A stretch of 64,000 nt of DNA from Pagrus major (Eukaryota > Chordata > Actinopteri > Spariformes > Sparidae). Numbering within the stretch: the stretch's first letter is position 1; each line of letters opens with the position of its first letter. The stretch covers positions 20,856,660-20,920,659 of the forward strand of contig NC_133235.1 in assembly GCF_040436345.1 (NCBI RefSeq). The letters are read 5' to 3'. Below, in pieces: positions 13,973 to 63,886 of this stretch. The position numbers and the translations under genes were made by a program. The notes under the pieces are model-generated. The model saw only the letters and a list, made by a program, of their open reading frames with translations, ran no database searches and was not told the DNA's origin.

Positions 13973-14356
<384 letters not shown>

Positions 14357-15342: not shown

Positions 15343-22591
<7,249 letters not shown>

Positions 22592-24489: not shown

Positions 24490-24706
24490 AGTTATGGGAT
24501 GTAACTAAGTACATTAACTCAAGTACTGTACTTAAGTAGAATTTTGATGTACTTGTATTTTACTTGAGTATTTCCATTTTCTGCTACTTTATACTTTGAC
24601 TCCATTAAATCTTGGAGTCAAATATTGTACTTTTTACGCCACTACATTTATTTGATCAATTTAGTTAGGCTTCTAGTTACTTTGAAGACTGCATGCTGTA
24701 TGATAC
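24490..24706. repeat. GTAACTAAGTACATT repeat, copy 1
   Basis: Begins GATGTAACTAAGTACATTAAC and continues with AAGTACTGTACTTAAGTA and TACTTGAGTATTTCCATTTTC. The same block occurs at 27278-27480 and, in altered form, at 26835-27180. Confidence 0.65.
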
Positions 24707-25657
24707 GGAAGCCCTAGAGGGCCATGCATTCATACATTTTATTTCCTCCGTTTTCCCGTGATAACGAGTTAATTTCATTTGTTTTCTCGAGATCTCGAGT
24801 TATTATCTCGAAATAACAACTGCCATTTTCCCAAGATAACGGGATCATTTTCTCAAGATAACGGGATCATTTTCTCAAGATCTCGAGATAACGAAACTTT
24901 GTTTTCCCGAGATAACGACATAATTAATTTGAGATCTATCATATCACAGCCATTATCTCGAGATCTTGAGTTATTATCTCGAAATAACAACTGCCATTTT
25001 CCCGAGATAACGGGATCATTTTCTCAAGATTTCGAGATAACGAAACTTTGTTTTCCCCAGATAACCATATATTAAATTCGAGATCTATCATATCACAGCC
25101 ATTATCTCGAGATCTCGAGTTAATGATCCCGTTATCTCGGGAAAATATAATTAATTCGAGATCTCAAGATAATGGCTGTGATATGATAGGCCTGAGATTA
25201 TGGAGACGCTCACTTAGATTGCGCTGCCGATATAGCTGAAGCCTTGCTAACCGTCTTTTTAGATTACGCACACTAATGTGTATATTATCTGTAATAGCAA
25301 GGCATAATGCTATTTCAGCCTGTGTCAGGCCTTGATTGAAAAGATATGTGATGCGGTGATCGATATGCTCCTGCTCCTCTGACATTGCTACACTGAATAA
25401 TGTTTCCTGCAATGATTTAATATACTACACTGTCGTTTTGTTTTCTCAAGATCTCAAATTAATTATATCGTTATCTCGGGAAAACAAAGTTTAGTTATGT
25501 CGAGATCTCAAGAAAATTATCTCGTTATCTCGGGAAAATGGCAGTTGTTATTTCAAGATAATAACTCGAGATCTCGAGAAAACAAATGAAATTAACTCGT
25601 TATCTCGGGAAAACGGAGGAAATAAAATGTTTGAATGCATGGCCCTTTAGGGCTTCC
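24707..25657. mobile_element. 951-bp inverted-repeat DNA transposon
   Basis: The left end GGAAGCCCTAGAGGGCCATG and the right end (reverse complement GGAAGCCCTAAAGGGCCATG) begin a terminal inverted repeat of about 200 bases, running past CATTTTATTTCCTCCG and CGAGTTAATTTCATTTG. A flanking ATAC at 24703-24706 and 25658-25661 is a possible 4-bp target duplication. The arms are packed with ATCTCGAGAT-type words, including the palindrome CTCGAGATCTCGAG at 24786, 25106 and 25565. A tandem internal duplication lies at about 24800-25120, and an inverted internal copy at about 25120-25190. A remnant ORF sits near the centre-right. The superfamily is not assigned. Confidence 0.85.
25164..25385 (-). CDS. 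Remnant transposase/integrase-like N-terminal domain
   Basis: From ATG at 25385 the ORF reads MSEEQEHIDHRITYLFNQ, GLTQAEIALCLAITDNIHIS, VRNLKRRLARLQLYRQR and then runs into repeat sequence (PIISQPLS, stop at 25164). GLTQAEIALCLA looks like a helix-turn-helix. The whole resembles, from memory, the N terminus of integrase-core (rve) proteins abundant in fish and coral genomes. The catalytic core is absent, so this is a truncated remnant within the inverted-repeat element, not a host gene. It is open over about 74 codons. Confidence 0.6.
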   Translation of the reverse strand: MSEEQEHIDHRITYLFNQGLTQAEIALCLAITDNIHISVRNLKRRLARLQLYRQRNLSERLHNLRPIISQPLS

Positions 25658-25913
25658 ATACTTTAGGGCTTCAGTAGTATGAGATCCAAAGTAGAGTTTT
25701 TAAATTAATTAATTTTATTAGCAAACAGATATGTTTTTTTTTTAAAAAAAAAAAAAAAAAAGAAGAGAGAAAGAGGTGTGAGGAAATGTTGACTTAAATT
25801 TTATTTAGTAACACTCATCTAACCTACTGATGCATTTCATAAAAATTAATGAGGTTATTACAAAGTTTTGTAAAAAAAAAAAATTTACTTTATCCTGCAG
25901 GTGCGTTCATTGG

Positions 25914-27724: not shown

Positions 27725-27885
27725 CAATAACTGAATAAACAAGCTGTTCTCAGAGGGAAATAAGCCCCCCCTGAACACTGTTTGAAGCTAGAAAGGTGGC
27801 AGGGTCCGCCACATATAAACAAAGTAAAACAGTATGAAATAGTGTTGTCCTTTAAGGTCAGTTTGTTTATTCTGTTTGTTTAGGC
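27725..27885. repeat. MITE family B, copy 2 (partial)
   Basis: Shares AAACAAGCTGTTCTCAGAGG, GGTGGCAGGGTCCGCCACAT and GTTGTCCTTTAAGGTCAG with the copy at 63180-63330. Confidence 0.7.
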
Positions 27886-28242: not shown

Positions 28243-28481
28243 GCGGGCAAACGATACAAAACACTCCGCGAAAGTAGAGATGCCTCAGAGAAGTGTGTGA
28301 GTGTTTTCAATGACAGGAGCCTGACAGTCAACACCCAGGGATAAAAAAACAACAAAACAAAACTTTTTTAAAAAGAAAAGGCAGAAAGGCGCGTGCAGAG
28401 AGAGTGAAGTTGTTGTTGTGCTGTCACACTTGTGGGTTCACTTTTTCACACCTTTATTTCCTTCCTTCACCACGTGGATTC

Positions 28482-29366
28482 ATGTGTGACATATACAGCC
28501 TGGACTCTCACTGCGTGTCTCCACGATGCAACATGAGTTGGGCGATGGAGCCTGCTAACTTCTACGAGAGCACCAAGCTGGGTGGCCCGCAGCAGGGGGG
28601 CTGCAAGCCGGGCAGCAGGGGCGACGGCGCGGCCGAGGACGGCACCATGGTGGAGCTGAGCACCGCCCCTGCCATGTACGACGACGAGAGCGCCATCGAC
28701 TTCAGCCAGTACATCGAGTCCATGACAGCCGTGCCGAACCTGGAGCTGTGCAACGACGAGCTCTTCCTCGACCTGTTCAACACTGTGAAGCAGGAGAAGG
28801 TGGATTTCTACACCATGCAGAGCTCCGTGCAGCCCGGCGGCATGCAGCAGCTGTCAGCCGCCTACACAGCAGAGAGGAGAGCGGACGGCATGATGGAGAA
28901 GGGGGCGTTCAACGCGCCCATCAAGCAGGAGTCCGACTGGAGCGACAGCGACATGTCCTCATCTCTGCCCTCACAGATCGAGACCTGCGCCCAGACCTCC
29001 GTCAGCCTCCCCACGGGGCAGCCGACTCCCCCCACCACCCCGGAGCCCGTCTCCTCCAACGTGAGCTCGGCCAAGTCCTCCCCGCGGAAGATGGGGAGGG
29101 AGAAGTCGAAGAAGTCGGTGGACAGGTTCAGCATGGAGTACCGACAGAGGCGAGAGAGGAATAACATTGCAGTGAGGAAAAGCAGGGACAAAGCCAAGAT
29201 GCGCAACTTGGAGATGCAACAGAAGTTGCTTGAACTGAGCTCAGAGAACGACAGGCTTCATAAAACCATCGAGCAGCTAACCAGAGAGCTCACCGGGCTC
29301 AGAGATTTCTTCAAGCAGATGCCCAACTCCTCCTTTGCGGGCTCCTCTAATGCAGAGAGCCGGTGA
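28482..29366 (+). CDS. cebpd: CCAAT/enhancer-binding protein delta
   Basis: Intronless 294-aa bZIP transcription factor acting in inflammation, differentiation and growth arrest. The ATG at 28482 ([14 protein letters not shown]) is the first in-frame ATG; Met18 (MSWAMEP) and Met22 are possible downstream starts. Residues about 66-99 ([16 protein letters not shown], then [16 protein letters not shown]) form the conserved activation segment. Residues 219-242 ([20 protein letters not shown]) are the DNA-contacting basic region, followed by a leucine zipper to about 275 ([33 protein letters not shown]). Two psi-K-x-E sumoylation motifs are visible, VKQE at 102-105 and IKQE at 147-150, and a proline-directed [11 protein letters not shown]. 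Coding GC is much higher than the flanks. Delta rather than alpha/beta is supported by the activation segment and by the mcm4/spidr neighbours. Dimers bind palindromic CCAAT-type sites in the nucleus. Confidence 0.96.
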
Positions 29367-33300: not shown

Positions 33301-36300
33301 CTATGTTACTTTAAACTTCTTTTTACAATGTTACTGCACCCTCATCTGAAATGTAAAGCCGTATGGGGAGCAGGCACATTCATCTCAATTCAAACTGACA
33401 TGGGAATTGACAAAAATCCAACAAATTTTCATGTGTTTGTATTTCATAGTCCCAAACAATGACAGCTGGAATACACTGAATAACAAACAGCAGAAAGTGA
33501 AGCCTTGAAGCCACATCAAGGCCTCTTGCTGAGCTGTAAACTTGTGTATGAAAAAACAAGTGGTTTTCCTCCCCCCTTACAGAACAACACATCGAGCATG
33601 TTCTGCAGGAATCACTTCAGATGAGGCGAGTTACAGGGAAACCGCAGGACTCTGTGAAGGGGGGGGGGGGGGGGGGGGGGACTGACCTGTGAGAGAGCAG
33701 AGGGAGTTGGGTGTTATCTCAGGACTCACAGGATCCAGTCTCACAGGTTGGGGTGGGGTCTTTGCCTCGGGCTCAGATAGTGACTGTGAATGTGAGTTTG
33801 GCATGGCTGAGGAGTTGCCTTCAGGATCCACGGAGCAAACCTCGACAACCGACTGCTCCACACACAGAATGACACCTAGATTTGGACATTTAAAATTGAA
33901 ATGGTATTATAAAGGAAATGTTCATTAAAAATCTGATACTGATTGAGTTTATCTCCAAGCTAGCAGACTAGTTTGGGTGCAGTGGTGGAGGAAGTACTCA
34001 GATCCTTTACTTAAGTAAAAGTACCAGTACAACAATGTAGAAATATTTAATAGCAAGTACAATTTCTTCATTCAAAATCCTCGATTAGTTAGAATAGTTA
34101 TTTATTAGCATTAACCCTGATAGCAAGTCAGGTAAAGCAATATTTTTGTGTTTTGGGGGAATGCACTAGTGCAGCAATGACTCTGGGACAAAATCATTTT
34201 GTAAGCTAAAGCTTCAAACGTCAAACAGCTATCAACAAGTTGTTTAAATGCACTGATGTCTTTGTTGTGTCCATGTTGTTTCCACGTTATGGCTTGAAAG
34301 CTCATGAACACACACAGAAGCAGTTGTGCAGAAACATTTTAGTTCAAGTCCAAAATTCACTCTCTTTTAGCTCGGTTTTTGGTCTCCAGCTCCTGAGGAA
34401 AATATTCAGCTGTTTAGCTACTAAATGCTCCATTCTGTGCACCAGCTAGTCTCTGTGTCTGTCTGCTTTTGGTGCTGAGCAGGTAGTGAATTTATTTTGC
34501 TGACAACAGCTCCTTGCTGCTGCTTCAAACAAGGCTAAGAGAGCGGTGAGAGTGAACCGGAACAAAAAAGTTGTGGGCGAACAGCTAAACAATGAGCTTA
34601 AACTCACCATAAAGCCCCATTCTCTGCATGTTCATCACTACAAGCGACCATTTCACATCGTCATTTTATTGCATTGTTATTATATTGAAAAAAAGCAATT
34701 ATAGCAGCTTAAACAATCTAATAATGTGATGCATAATAATATATCAGACACAGGCCATTTTATGTAGGCGAAAGACCTGAGTACTTTTACCACCACTGCT
34801 AACAACTATAGCTTTCAGATTAATACAGTGGTTTAAAAATTACAATATTTTCCTTTTTAAATGTATTAAAGTAGAAGTACAAAGTAACAAATAATGGGAA
34901 TACTCAAGTAGAGTACAAGTACATCAGACTTGTTCATGAGTAAATGTTCTTATTTACTTTCCTCCCCTGTTAGGATGGCATGTACACACAGTCCTAAAAG
35001 ATTAAAAACCTTAAGAGATAGTGGTTGAATGGCACGTCAGGTCATAGTCGAGCTCTACCATGTTCTTTGATGGCATCTCTGAATAGCATGCGACAAGCGG
35101 CGGGGGATTTTAGTGCTTCGAGGACAGAGGAAGTGAGCACACAGGAAGTGTTCACACACAGGGCCACTGTTCGCCTACAAGGCCTCTCTGGCTGCTCCTC
35201 CTGAAGACTGGGGTCTGTCAGCACCAAGCAAACCTCACCCTGTCCTACATCACTGCTCTGAAATAGCAACGAAGACACAAAGGAAGAGAATTTCTTAGAA
35301 ACATGCAACCAGAGTGGCCTAGAAAGAGGCAACTTAAAGGAAATATTACATAACAAAAGCTTAAAATTAACACAAACTAGACACAAGTCTTCTTTTATGT
35401 TTAAGAATCACCTGCTTTGATGAGATTATTCATTCACAAGTGACACACAATGGTGGTTACTAGTTCAACAGTATAAGCTGCATCTGTGTTTCAGTGGTGT
35501 GAGTGTGTGGCAAAGTCCACCACTTTGTTCTGAGCTGCTATCTCATCTTGGTCAAAGTTTAAAGGTCTCACCAATCAATGGTGAAGAACGCCCGACTGTC
35601 ATACACACAGCGATATGAACGCCGCTCTCTACGTCAGAGCTCAATCTTATCAGTTTGTTGGCTCAAATGATCACAAAAAGACGACTGAGGAGCTCTAAAG
35701 GATGCAATGTTTATTATGTTCTTCTGACTAGAGTCAAATTAAATCAGTTTTATGGGGATGAGTAAAAAAGACAAACTTACCTGCAATATTCTCTTGTATA
35801 TGACAGTGGCAATAAAACTGCAGCGACAGCTTTTAAGCTCACTCTAATAAAAAGGAAAAAAACATGTCTGAGATCGACCTGCTGGAGATAAGATATCCCA
35901 ATCTGCAGATTTCTTTTTGGCATTTTGTGTGTGTGAGAGAAGCCGCTCACCTGCAGTATGTCTCGTAACGTTTGTGTTGTTGGTGGAAGGTAAAGCGGGG
36001 ACACAGTGTGGCCCTCAACGGGTTCAACCGAGTTCTCCTGACCAGACAGAAGGTAGCAGAAACTCGGAGCTGGACCTGCAGATCTACTTTCCTGCAACAC
36101 CAATATATATTGATTACTAAATTTGAATCCAACCCTCTTGTCAAAGAGGGAAAATTGCACAGACTCAGCTATTCTTTCTCCTGAGGTCATAACTGACATA
36201 CTTTTCTACATTGGCCCTTCAGGAAAACACATTTAATGATTTTTTCTGAATTTGCAATTGTTGTCAATTCAGTGAATTTGTCAGTTTGCCCATGTTTTAT

Positions 36301-60900: not shown

Positions 60901-63886
60901 CCCTGAATCTAGAAGGTTCATCATGAAATGTTGGTTAAAGCCTGTAAGGCCCTTTCAGGACATGTTGACTGCAATACTCCACCTGCTAGTGTGATAACTA
61001 CAACATACAATCAAAACAAAATAAATCAGCTATAAAACATAAAGACTTAAAATAAAACACCATATCATTAGTGTTATTTTACGTTACACTGTCACATATG
61101 CGTCCATGCCATCAGGTTTTACACACACACAGTGAACAGAAAGACATCTGGAGTCTCTGTACTTTAGGAAAAGTACTGACACTCGTGGTGCTACTTCTAG
61201 GAACACTGCATACACTGGAAGTGAGCTGATACTTTTAAATTAGAAACATACACTGGACTCAAACAGATATATAGAATTTTAGAGGTTGTGTGGCCCCACC
61301 TAGTGTTCATTAAAGCACATAACAACCTTGAGAAAAGAGCAAACCACAGTCCATTAGTGTCGACGTTTACATACACAAAATATTCCAGTTTTTTCCCTAA
61401 TTACAAAAAAGACAATGTTCCTACTAAGCCGTTTACATGGATAATGAAAATTAATATCCCTCTAATAGTCCTGTTACAAGCAGCCATGCATATTACAGTT
61501 AACAAACACAGCCTCTGTCTTTTCATTCCCGCAAACACATTTTAGAAAACGACATTGCAATATCTGTGCATATCCAAAAACCTGTTGATATCAAAGTCTT
61601 TCATAATGTGTAAAAGTAGGTGTGTCCCTCCATTTGATCAGATCTCTATCTGAGCCCTGAAAGCTTTTGACTTGGCAAGCATAGTTGAAACAGGCATGAG
61701 GTTGTGTTTTGCAAGCTACGGTAAATACCCACAAAGGATTGGTCTTAAAACCTGGATAAAATGCTGTTTATATGACCCATATAAAATTCTGATAATTGTC
61801 ATATTTGGAATAATCGTGGATAATCAGTTTGCATGTAAACATAGTTATTGTACCTGTCTAATGCACCTGATTCACGCACTAATGCAGTTCACGAGAAGTA
61901 CATTAATGGTTGTAAGTACTCACATTTGTAGATTTAAGAGGCAAGTCTTCCGGTTTTTCATCAAAGGACTCTGACTCGCAGTCAGAGATTTGTTGCCCAC
62001 TGTCCTTTTCAACATCTTCCTCGGACTCATCCACATCACTGTCTGTGTCAATAACAAGAAGATCATCTAAAAGAAAGAGAGGGGAAAAAACAACACACAT
62101 TTACACACACACATTTTTCACAAAATAATCTAATTCAAGGTCTGTTTACAAGGTTTTTCTGGAGCAGTGACTGGAGGATGCTCAGATCTTATCAAGTGAC
62201 TAAAACCTCTTACCTAGGTCACAGGATGACAACTGAGTCAACGCCATGACAACTGAGAAAACTCTGGAAAAAAACTAGCAAGTGGACCTTGAGTTAAAGG
62301 AAAGGTTTGACATTTTGGAAAATACGCGTATTCACTGTCTTGCCACAGGTCAGATGGCAGCTTAGCTTAGTTTAGCTTCGCACAAAGACTGGAAACAAGG
62401 AAAACAGCAAAGCTGGCTCTGTCCAGTGGTCAAGGAGTTAACCTATTAGCCTACTTAAAACCCCGTAATTAACAAAGGTCAGCTCTTGAAAAGCTGAACT
62501 GTCTATTAAGAGCAATGTCATATTTCCCAGCTCTGACTCAGCGGCTCACAACATTCATTCACCTTTATCAGTTCTGAGCATGCGCAGCGCTCTTGTGTAA
62601 GACTGGATGGGAGCTGTGGGTCTCGACGGTCTCCGAGGACGTTGTTGCTGCTGAACCACACCTCTGGACAGATGTTGCTCCTGGGTCTCGTTATCAGACT
62701 GTTCACTGCCGCTGGAGCTCCACGCAATGTTCACCAAGTCCTCTCTACTGTCTACATTAAGAGAAGAAAATGGCGGTGGGTGTCAAAATGAAGTAAATTT
62801 ATTTTATTAAAATACAACTAAGTTAAAAAAAATACAAAAACACACCACATACAAACAGATATTCTTACATTTAAGCCATTCAGCAGCCTCAACATGGGTT
62901 GAATTTTATCAGGCCAGATGTTAAATAGCGTCAGACAGGAGCTCGCAATTAAAATGAAGTAATTATTTGGTCAATTTACATTTATCATTCAAATAACTTC
63001 GCTATTACTTGATCTGTTCTTTTAACTCCTAGAACATGGATAAAGTCAGTGGTTAAAACAGTTTTCTAGTGGAAGAAACATCCAACATATTTTTTTATAT
63101 TATTAATGGTTAACCAATAATGGACTGTTAAACAGGCACGGTGTGGTTTAAAAATATAGCTCAAAAATATTTATCTCTTCCATAACTGAATAAACAAGCT
63201 GCTCTCAGGGGAAAATAAGGTCCCCAGAACACTGTTTAAAGCTAGTACGGTGGCAGGGTCCGCCACATATAAACAAAGTAAAACAGCATGAAAGTGTGTT
63301 GTCCTTTGAGGTCAGTTTGTTTATTTAGTTAATTAAAAAAAAAAACCATCTGATTGAAGAATAGCAAAACAACTTTACTATTTTGTGATCATCTGTGGGC
63401 CATTTTTATTAAAACAAACATTAGGTTTGATGTAATATAAATAAAAATGTAGATGTAGATCTTAAATGGGGATAGTGAGAAAGTCTACAATATGATTGCA
63501 GCTGTGATAAAACATCAATATATTGCACAGGCACTTAAATTACAAATTACCTAAAGCAGGTGACTGTGCCAACTTCCTGATGGCTGACAGTTTCCTTCCA
63601 GATGACTTCAGGTTCTGCAACAAAAACAACAAAAGCATCAACAATGTTAAAAACAAACAAACAAACATAGAGTTGTGGTTTGGGGTTAAGTTGTGAGTAT
63701 TATATCAATCATGTCTTTATCTACCTTCATCACTGGACTGTCCAGAAAACTGTCCCCACACTTCTTCCAGCTCTTGGCAGAAGACGCAGATGAAAGTGAG
63801 GCTGGCTCTCTGCCCACTTTTTGGACACCATTTTCCACATCATCCGGAAAGAAAACACACTTTATGTCCTTGTAGTGTCTTTTACG
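30184..63886 (-). CDS. spidr: Scaffold protein involved in DNA repair (SPIDR), 5' end missing
   Basis: Nineteen minus-strand exons join in frame to 928 residues; the human protein is 915. SPIDR is a nuclear scaffold in homologous recombination that links BLM helicase and RAD51 and works with FIGNL1. Recognised from human blocks: WSSSGS (exon at 62.7 kb), TPQK/TPED/SAKKKRK (58.4 kb), GGLAERLNRLQSR and FWRHQ (57.4 kb), LEVQEECSMQLALCE (54.8 kb), VVVQRVYSIP (48.3 kb), LVQDSYGMF (40.9 kb), FSLIDSLWPP (37.7 kb) and VLGKEIGP with IGLEEISL at the C terminus. Four cysteines (C818, C821, C838, C841 counted from the first visible residue) suggest a zinc ribbon. The N-terminal third is acidic and low-complexity. 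The first exon (about 10-15 codons by comparison with human) is probably beyond 64000. The gene spans over 33 kb, with introns up to 7.2 kb. Confidence 0.92.
30803..30859 (-). CDS. spidr: spidr exon 19
   Basis: 57 bases, LQQKTIMSILNTAALEGTE, matching human LLQRSISSLLRFAAGEDG. Confidence 0.88.
31640..32096. mobile_element. MITE, family C copy 1
   Basis: Contains AGCCTGGCTCCGTCC, GTTTCCAGTCATTTTGCGAAG, GAGATTGGTATCAATCTTCTC and ends AACTATTCCTTTAAA, a pattern common in teleosts. Other copies lie at 39700-39996 and, reversed, at 62285-62480. In spidr intron 19-18. Confidence 0.65.
32211..32322 (-). CDS. spidr: spidr exon 18 (zinc knuckle 2)
   Basis: 112 bases, ENFLCVSCKSVVDEPKTRIQ to NCTLKVK. 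Holds the second Cys pair (CVSC) and aligns with human RHLQVFLDCRSRPQCRVKVK. Confidence 0.92.
32398..32491 (-). CDS. spidr: spidr exon 17 (zinc knuckle 1)
   Basis: 94 bases, AIVGVDENTAYSWPACNHCG to MLSER. Holds the first Cys pair (CNHC), matching human CDMC. Confidence 0.92.
33659..33680. repeat. G22 homopolymer
   Basis: Twenty-two G in a row on plus (C in the spidr transcript), starting six bases into the intron after exon 16. Confidence 0.9.
33687..33875 (-). CDS. spidr: spidr exon 16
   Basis: 189 bases, VILCVEQSVVEVCSVDPEGN to ITPNSLCSLT. Its donor GTCAGT is followed at once by a run of 22 C in the transcript. Confidence 0.9.
33979..34799. mobile_element. MITE with GCAGTGGTGG ends
   Basis: Starts GCAGTGGTGG and ends CCACCACTGC, with AGTACTCAGATC facing GACCTGAGTACTTTTAC just inside. 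The interior shows no transposase. CAGTGGTGG ends are hAT-like, but no 8-bp target duplication is visible. Confidence 0.65.
34800..34965. repeat. AAGTACTT-type repeat fragment
   Basis: AAAGTAGAAGTACAAAGTA and ACTCAAGTAGAGTACAAGTA resemble the family at 24490 in reverse orientation. Confidence 0.45.
35059..35257 (-). CDS. spidr: spidr exon 15
   Basis: 199 bases, SSDVGQGEVCLVLTDPSLQE to RDAIKEH. CRMLFRDAIKEHG aligns with human HSLFFKDALRDQG. The donor GTAGAG is unusual. Confidence 0.9.
35781..35843 (-). CDS. spidr: spidr exon 14
   Basis: 63 bases (21 codons), SELKSCRCSFIATVIYKRI plus LQ. Acceptor TATTAG; donor GTAAGT. Confidence 0.88.
35951..36091 (-). CDS. spidr: spidr exon 13
   Basis: 141 bases (47 codons), ESRSAGPAPSFCYLLSGQEN to PTTQTLRDILQ, matching human PALCYILTAHPN and TRCLRDILQ. 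Confidence 0.92.
36527..36800. repeat. AAAGGTGCCCTGTGGA repeat
   Basis: Begins CTTAAAGGTGCCCTGTGGAT and TTTTCTTGTAAA and ends near AGAGGCCTTTAAAG, a familiar teleost dispersed repeat with a TTAA-like edge. In spidr intron 12-13. Confidence 0.5.
37635..37722 (-). CDS. spidr: spidr exon 12
   Basis: 88 bases, RTRLFSLIDSLWPPVMPV then KDHGNAPCMSS, between CTCTCAG and GTAAGT. No long ORF covers it; it was found by similarity to human FSLIDTLWPPAIPLK. Confidence 0.9.
39119..39436. mobile_element. MITE, family A copy 2
   Basis: Left edge TTAAAAGTGGAATATGTAAG and right edge CTTACATAGTGCACTTGTAA, with GTTAGCAGCAGTCAGC inside. Same order as 2911-3223. Confidence 0.7.
39700..39996. mobile_element. MITE, family C copy 2
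   Basis: Has GGACAGAGCCAGGCCAGCTG, TGTATCAATCTTCTCAGC, AAATAAGCGTATAACTGTC and ends AACTATTCCTTTGAA. Confidence 0.65.
40829..40987 (-). CDS. spidr: spidr exon 11
   Basis: 159 bases, LCVLVQDSYGMFSVVQLHLL to VVQRVTRE plus two bases. Separated from exon 10 by the largest intron (7.2 kb). Confidence 0.92.
41575..41795. repeat. GCTAAC-rich repeat fragment (family A related)
   Basis: GCAGCATATCACCAGAGTAA, GCTAACTG and CAGCTAGCCATGCAGCTAGC match the piece at 54115-54300 and recall family A interiors in reverse. Confidence 0.5.
41947..42228 (-). pseudogene. Orphan receptor-tail-like exon (uncertain)
   Basis: An open frame without an ATG reads GWSTQETVDSSVLMTLIAS, ISVLHIYRCIRKVTKESKAR and later NTPTPSITSSNDTVSV, KKGDVPYRNLKSQ, stop at 41947. 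It looks like a single membrane-spanning segment followed by a basic stop-transfer (RCIRK) and a tail with an ITIM-like VPYRNL, as in the last exon of an immunoglobulin-family receptor. Upstream in-frame stops and an AG at about 42231 would fit an exon start, but no ectodomain is nearby. I cannot name the family. It could be a relic or chance. Confidence 0.3.
44080..44530. mobile_element. Foldback element with 100-bp arms
   Basis: The arms at about 44222-44327 and 44420-44518 are imperfect inverted repeats: GGCTCCAGAGGAAGCCACAT faces ATGTGGCTTCCTCTGGAGC, and GTGGGTAATGTAGGCGCCA faces GGCGCCTACATTACCCAC. No ORF of its own. Confidence 0.75.
46570..46790. repeat. CTTTCACACAT dispersed repeat
   Basis: AAGCCTCTTTCACACATAG, GCTGTTTCACACATGCC and AAAACTCAACAGAAGAAGAAG recall a common teleost repeat. 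Edges are approximate. Confidence 0.4.
48162..48406 (-). CDS. spidr: spidr exon 10
   Basis: 245 bases, VAAFDALCSFGGSGGLTRHC to PAEKGKT plus two bases of Arg. Contains VEVVVQRVYSIPVPD (human VRVVVQRVYSLPSRD). Confidence 0.93.
48695..48955. repeat. AGACAGGAGCTAAAACGGAG repeat
   Basis: CCAATCAGAGAATACTGGG, AAAACGGAGCGTTTCAGACA, TGAACCTGAAAATGAGCAT and ATAATATGTCTACTTTGAG follow the order of a familiar teleost repeat. In spidr intron 9-10. Confidence 0.55.
49867..50071 (-). CDS. spidr: spidr exon 9
   Basis: 205 bases, QSLSIEGFSCDIILNTHFSQ to RTTEENDAKQ, matching human VILNTYFCEKV. Confidence 0.92.
53450..53487 (+). promoter_or_regulatory. Candidate enhancer core: TEAD palindrome plus CRE
   Basis: GGAATGTGAAGCATTCC (53450-53466) contains two opposed GGAATG TEAD-type half sites, and a full CRE TGACGTCA lies 14 bases further (53480-53487), inside a GC-richer part of a spidr intron. 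Confidence 0.4.
54115..54300. repeat. GCTAAC-rich repeat fragment (family A related)
   Basis: GCAGCATATCACCAGAGTAA is shared exactly with about 41610. Contains AGCCGTGCAGCTAGCAGCCC. Confidence 0.5.
54659..54878 (-). CDS. spidr: spidr exon 8
   Basis: 220 bases, DRPGVLVLEVLEVQEECSMQ to RDIIHIYPPW. It matches human VLTVKILELHEECAMQVAMCE and DTVRIFPPWQ. A long GT tract lies 35 bases upstream of its acceptor. Confidence 0.93.
54913..54956. repeat. (GT)n microsatellite
   Basis: About 22 GT units with one AT break, upstream of the spidr exon 8 acceptor. Confidence 0.9.
57405..57505 (-). CDS. spidr: spidr exon 7
   Basis: 101 bases, GGLAERLNRLQSRQRSAVSF then WRHQSISDASTAT, one of the best conserved blocks. 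The exon before it ends AG, so the split codon is Ser. Confidence 0.93.
57911..58235. mobile_element. CAACTAA-type MITE
   Basis: Starts AAGCTGCAACAATTAATTG and ends ATTAGTTGCAGCCCT, inverted repeats at both ends. The interior has ATCGATTAATCAACTTG facing AGATTAATCGACTATTC, and TTTCCAGCTTCATAAATG. Best-kept copy of this family in the window. Confidence 0.75.
58342..58577 (-). CDS. spidr: spidr exon 6
   Basis: 236 bases, MTELEISGYASDGESIGHTM to SAKKKRKFQ. It carries minimal CDK sites (TPQK, TPED) and a basic KKKRK that could serve as a nuclear signal. The donor is GTTTGA, weaker than the others. Confidence 0.85.
60375..60675. repeat. CAACTAA-type MITE remnant
   Basis: TTTTCATTTTCGATTGATC, TTAAGAAGCTGGAACCATC and GTCAATCGATTCATACAC follow the same order as the copy at 57911-58235; the right end is eroded. 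Confidence 0.55.
61924..62066 (-). CDS. spidr: spidr exon 5 (acidic)
   Basis: 143 bases, DLLVIDTDSDVDESEEDVEK to EDLPLKSTN. The hydrophobic LLVI followed by acidic and serine residues looks like a SUMO-interacting motif. Confidence 0.82.
62285..62480. repeat. MITE family C, copy 3 (reverse)
   Basis: GTTAAAGGAAAGGTTTGACA, TTAGCTTAGTTTAGCTTCGC and AGCTGGCTCTGTCCAGTGG are the reverse of the family C order. Confidence 0.65.
62563..62751 (-). CDS. spidr: spidr exon 4
   Basis: 189 bases, SREDLVNIAWSSSGSEQSDN to ALRMLRTDK. Acceptor AATGTAG at 62752-62753 keeps the frame; the alternative CAG four bases further in does not. It contains a QQQQRPRRPSRP low-complexity segment. Confidence 0.8.
63180..63330. 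repeat. MITE family B, copy 3
   Basis: AAACAAGCTGCTCTCAGGGG, GGTGGCAGGGTCCGCCACAT and GTTGTCCTTTGAGGTCAG. Close to the copy at 27725-27885. Confidence 0.7.
63551..63614 (-). CDS. spidr: spidr exon 3
   Basis: 64 bases, NLKSSGRKLSAIRKLAQSPA plus L, between GTTGCAG and GTAATT. It has no obvious human counterpart, and was chosen because it joins its neighbours in frame. Confidence 0.7.
63725..63886 (-). CDS. spidr: spidr exon 2
   Basis: 162 bases, RKRHYKDIKCVFFPDDVENG to SFLDSPVMK, between GTGCAG and GTAGAT. RKRHY aligns with human KRKRSW. The frame is also open upstream to an ATG at about 63925, but a pyrimidine-rich tract before CAG favours an acceptor. Confidence 0.75.

Follow-up and report, generated by a model that had tools for sequence, protein, structure and literature searches.

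A probable non-autonomous transposon of the IS3EU/GingerRoot type in Pagrus major that retains a transposase N terminus

Introduction

The transposon groups IS3EU and GingerRoot can be recognized by their termini and target duplications: in passages of Kojima and Bao (PMC10045372), complete IS3EU families are described as always having TA..TA termini and usually 6-bp duplications, and GingerRoot as having 6-bp duplications and mostly TA..TA termini. A second point of reference is the P element of Drosophila, for which internally deleted transposases that keep the DNA-binding domain are described as repressors (in passages of PMC7776569). Here, we analyzed a stretch of 64,000 nucleotides from the fish Pagrus major (C21:20856660-20920659, referred to as the window), which holds a 973-bp inverted-repeat element at 24704-25676 with a truncated transposase open reading frame (ORF). 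The element is very probably a non-autonomous, internally deleted copy of a transposon of the IS3EU/GingerRoot type.

This placement is based on termini, target duplication, and core. TA..TA termini are present in the window copy (TAC at 24704, GTA at 25676) and in related loci, and the same 6-bp sequence, GTATGA, stands on both sides. The integrase-like DDE core is absent from the window copy but present in a full-length relative, and the N-terminal part belongs to no recognized zinc-finger family, all of which resembles IS3EU and GingerRoot as far as these are covered in the passages of PMC10045372. The window copy differs from them in lacking the core and in carrying terminal repeats of about 200 bp that are packed with one word. 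IS481EU, which was considered first, was rejected, as TNT..AYA or TGT..ACA termini and duplications of about 4, 15, or 25 bp contrast with TAC..GTA and 6 bp here. With miniature inverted-repeat transposable element (MITE)-like, internally deleted DNA transposons, the family shares the non-autonomous state, the many copies, and the presence of both termini around a missing core. However, a readable part of the N-terminal transposase sequence survives in most sampled copies here, and at 973 bp the window copy exceeds the family median of about 740 bp, as estimated from 32 pairs of exact termini.

Termini and Target Duplication

The inverted-repeat arms of the element at 24704-24859 (plus strand) and 25505-25660 (minus strand) are ungapped over 156 nt and 94% complementary, in agreement with the long terminal inverted repeats that an earlier note on this DNA had reported. 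In a typical copy of 748 bp (L019), the terminal repeats measure about 212 and 220 bp at 90%. The right end of the window copy consists of two termini in tandem: the inner one, which corresponds to the 5′ end of the full-length relative (25208-25661 is 95.6% identical to it over 454 bp), ends at 25660 as ATA, and the outer one at 25661-25676, in which the last bases (TTTAGGGCTTC..) are tandemly duplicated, ends as GTA. Since the outer terminus places identical GTATGA letters at 24698-24703 and 25677-25682, the right end is read as a tandem doubling and the element as 24704-25676. The earlier note had thus recognized a real element, but its span of 24707-25657 (951 bp) stopped at the inner right terminus and has been corrected accordingly.

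In the relatives, GGAAGC..GCTTCC is directly preceded by TAC and followed by GTA in nearly every row, and the duplicated bases, six in number, lie outside TAC..GTA. Both ends were present in 33 of the 38 loci fetched. The 6-bp duplication is exact in 21 of these 33, while seven have one mismatch, two have two, and three have four; two of the latter three rows (L001, L009) both represent the window locus, for which the inner right end had been used. For loci with several ends (L010, L032, L036), the end pair with the fewest mismatches was chosen. L010 has two right ends as well, and its target duplication matches at the outer one. End doubling recurs in the family: two to four termini of the same direction stand in a row in L014, L024, L010, and L036.

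A Full-Length Relative With an Integrase Core

A search of the genome (786 Mb, 25 contigs) with Pfam rva_4 gave at least 154 integrase-core matches, one of which, C9:689116-689520, adjoins a DNA match of the window element. This relative (L069) shares the 5′ terminus (98% over 58 bases) and also, at 93% over 59 residues, the N terminus. The ORF of the window element is accordingly the N-terminal end of an integrase-core (DDE) transposase, in line with the resemblance to integrase-core proteins pointed out in the earlier note. Neither of the two outcomes named there as refuting, a lack of other copies with these termini or full-length relatives with a different N terminus, occurred. Its open frame joins the N terminus to the integrase core, beyond which the coding sequence is interrupted by an in-frame stop and also by a frameshift; the open piece matches rva_4 (PF24764) at 2.2e-20, and the stretches HMDSYDKL, IRSDLGTEN, and NQRIE align to full relatives. 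A second terminal repeat of this relative was not found in C9:684000-691000. When the genome was searched with the L069 protein, the 150 scored candidates (of 991) comprised the C9 locus, 16 places aligning over the core with 40-48% identity, and rows whose alignment is confined to about residues 1-101 or a shorter part. Among these scored candidates, a single near-identical long copy was seen, and this copy is broken. Separately, a different rva_4 family occurs as near-identical pieces on many chromosomes (C6:39.6M, C22:4.2M, C23:0.3M, and others), often near contig ends, as would suit a block that is subtelomeric or was copied segmentally.

The Truncated ORF and the Word Arrays

The ORF on the minus strand at 25164-25385 encodes 73 amino acids plus a stop, which fits the roughly 74 codons noted before. 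It comprises the transposase N terminus, which models as a helix-turn-helix, and a tail read from repeat sequence, with the catalytic part gone, as the earlier note had stated; the element is a non-autonomous inverted-repeat transposon. A predicted DNA-binding domain is thus retained. Compared to the common copies, the window ORF has lost 16 further codons in frame, at about 25207/25208. In Pfam, the 73-residue ORF alone gave only a sub-threshold match to Clr5 (E 0.13), and a tblastn search of plasmids gave no match. Three cyanobacterial phycobilisome-type chains found by phmmer in the PDB (best E 3.3e-05 over 32 residues) were dismissed as unrelated short matches.

The interior of the element is itself repetitive. 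Subterminal repeat DNA is tandemly duplicated at 24846-25122 (copies 24846-24973 and 24995-25122, 92% over 128 nt, spacing 149). In addition, 24925-24973 recurs in inverted orientation at 25152-25200 (86%); both had been noticed earlier, as had the dense palindromes. Indeed, all 13 matches of ATCTCGAGAT (≤1 mismatch) in the 64-kb window fall inside the element, compared to a mean of 1.31 and a maximum of 5 in shuffles (n = 100). The CTCGAGAT words form an array common to the window element and the full-length relative. Words like TCTCGAGATAACG (≤2 mismatches, either strand, overlapping positions counted separately) occupy 24 positions at 24754-25615, several of them overlapping (shuffle mean 0.05). 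L019 has 13 such positions, and the full-length relative has eight within 275 bp at its 5′ end; the shuffle means for the three sequences are 0.03-0.05. Their presence in L019 and in the full-length relative makes them a property of the transposon ends and not of the window copy, and the N-terminal domain of the transposase could plausibly bind to them.

The Family in the Genome

A DNA search with the element gave at least 194 matches (40 of 862 candidates scored), and a protein search with the ORF matched all 150 candidates that were scored out of 827. The terminal 28-mer (≤2 mismatches) matched 669 + 691 = 1,360 times genome-wide, compared to none for the reversed control, i.e., other copies share the termini. 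The family would thus number several hundred elements, if most have two ends. Two-ended copies with matching target duplications are dispersed on many chromosomes. In 32 pairs of exact termini, matched by eye among the 100 termini listed, the smallest element measures 518 bp and the largest 1,899 bp, the median being about 740 bp. Among 122 sampled ORF copies, 92 belong to one deletion-junction class, codons 1-58 are open in 113, and the frame continues to a MAL ending within the terminal repeat in 24. The divergence from the consensus is about 1.9% in rows chosen by DNA match, which points to a young family. An IS3EU/GingerRoot-type family corresponding to this element is not described in passages of a fish paper (PMC12763893); Repbase and Dfam lay outside the search, and undescribed status is not implied.

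Genomic Surroundings

To the left of the element, MCM4 coding pieces with MCM P-loop and MCM4 winged-helix domains lie at 15346-19121 (minus strand), and to the right, a bZIP gene, which we take to be C/EBP, lies at 28314-29363 (plus strand). The gene order is reminiscent of the vertebrate MCM4-CEBPD neighborhood. The window further contains a long TA-type tandem repeat of period 6 (13974-14324, 58.5 copies), a coding piece on the minus strand that matches Pfam DUF4503 (35045-35407, E 1.5e-22), and a 145-bp repeat at 27727-27871 and 63182-63325 whose copies are 90% alike.

Passenger or Repressor?

The earlier note had suggested that the remnant, if expressed, could repress its full-length relatives. 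On the reading of a retained repressor, the N-terminal fragment would be kept as a trans-acting factor that occupies the subterminal words, leaves the DNA uncut, and blocks the full-length transposase, like KP of the P-element system. The likeness to KP lies in an internally deleted element able to encode a truncated transposase with a DNA-binding end, which is predicted here; the action of KP has been demonstrated, whereas that of the window ORF would be hypothetical, and a helix-turn-helix stands in place of the THAP domain. The modeled fold, the many copies of one word in the ends, the openness of codons 1-58 in most sampled copies together with the frames that run on to MAL, and the precedent of repressing P transposases truncated to include the DNA-binding domain (passages of PMC7776569) would all suit such a factor. 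So would the dN/dS of 81 rows chosen by protein score, calculated over 58 codons by comparing departures from the majority sequence with the numbers expected from the base changes involved and their CpG state: it is 0.57-0.58 (bootstrap 0.45-0.73), or 0.45 (0.29-0.66) without CpG sites. However, this set is biased toward a low ratio because its rows were picked by protein score, and the low value was not taken as selection for that reason. In 40 rows (38 loci) chosen by DNA, dN/dS is 1.04 (bootstrap 0.73-1.49), with 106 nonsynonymous changes, 28 synonymous changes, and one stop compared to 104.5, 28.6, and 1.9 expected, and 0.78 (0.45-1.43) without CpG sites. Net frameshifts occur in three of the 40 DNA-chosen and two of the 81 protein-chosen rows, stops in one and two, respectively. 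Moreover, the domain is damaged or deleted in some elements with both exact termini. Ten further elements chosen by exact termini and outside the listed ORF matches, a sample that leans toward damaged copies, were read over 101 bp at the expected place: seven contain domain DNA, with length changes that shift the frame in L155 and L158, whereas L160 and L161 begin mid-domain after unrelated bases, L159 has the downstream part only, and L156 has none of the domain. In L162, both exact termini enclose an element whose domain is deleted from about codon 5. A dN/dS near 1 in the DNA-chosen rows and these damaged elements speak against the retained repressor, which we consider unlikely. The wider version, in which hundreds of mini-transposon copies form a distributed repressor that swamped and silenced the full-length element and left one broken relative, appears just as doubtful. 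The ORF looks like a passenger, judging from these comparisons, and weak constraint on it may exist.

Two further readings concern the nature of the element itself. The inner ends of the window element are flanked by ATAC, which had been noted as a possible target duplication, and an element of another superfamily with 4-bp duplications, such as a Ginger-like one, would account for it. However, TAC and GTA are part of the element in the relatives, with six duplicated bases outside, and the window copy shows the same arrangement when read to its outer right terminus; the true duplication is the 6-bp GTATGA, and a 4-bp element is very improbable. The richness in short repeated words could also recall a chance or satellite-derived inverted repeat rather than a transposon, but dispersed two-ended copies with matching duplications and a transposase relative leave this reading with almost no probability.

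Origin and Implications

For the non-autonomous IS3EU/GingerRoot-type transposon, the following origin is proposed. A full-length element would have lost its catalytic core, mostly via one founder deletion, and the deleted form would have been multiplied in trans by the transposase of full-length copies, which might have gripped the repeated subterminal words through the same N-terminal domain. Recombination would then have expanded or contracted the repeat arrays of the ends, and both the doubling of the right terminus and the internal duplication would have arisen in this way. The ORF most likely persists not from need but because of the young age of the family (about 2% divergence from the consensus in the DNA-chosen rows) and its own place beside the 5′ end.

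The present evidence does not favor the repressor reading; if it were true, vertebrates would have a counterpart of the P-element KP system, and many open copies would be available for its study. As the window copy shows, doubling of a terminus can lead to the wrong bases being taken for the target duplication. For annotation, the boundaries, the very probable superfamily, and the target duplication of an abundant repeat family are now fixed.
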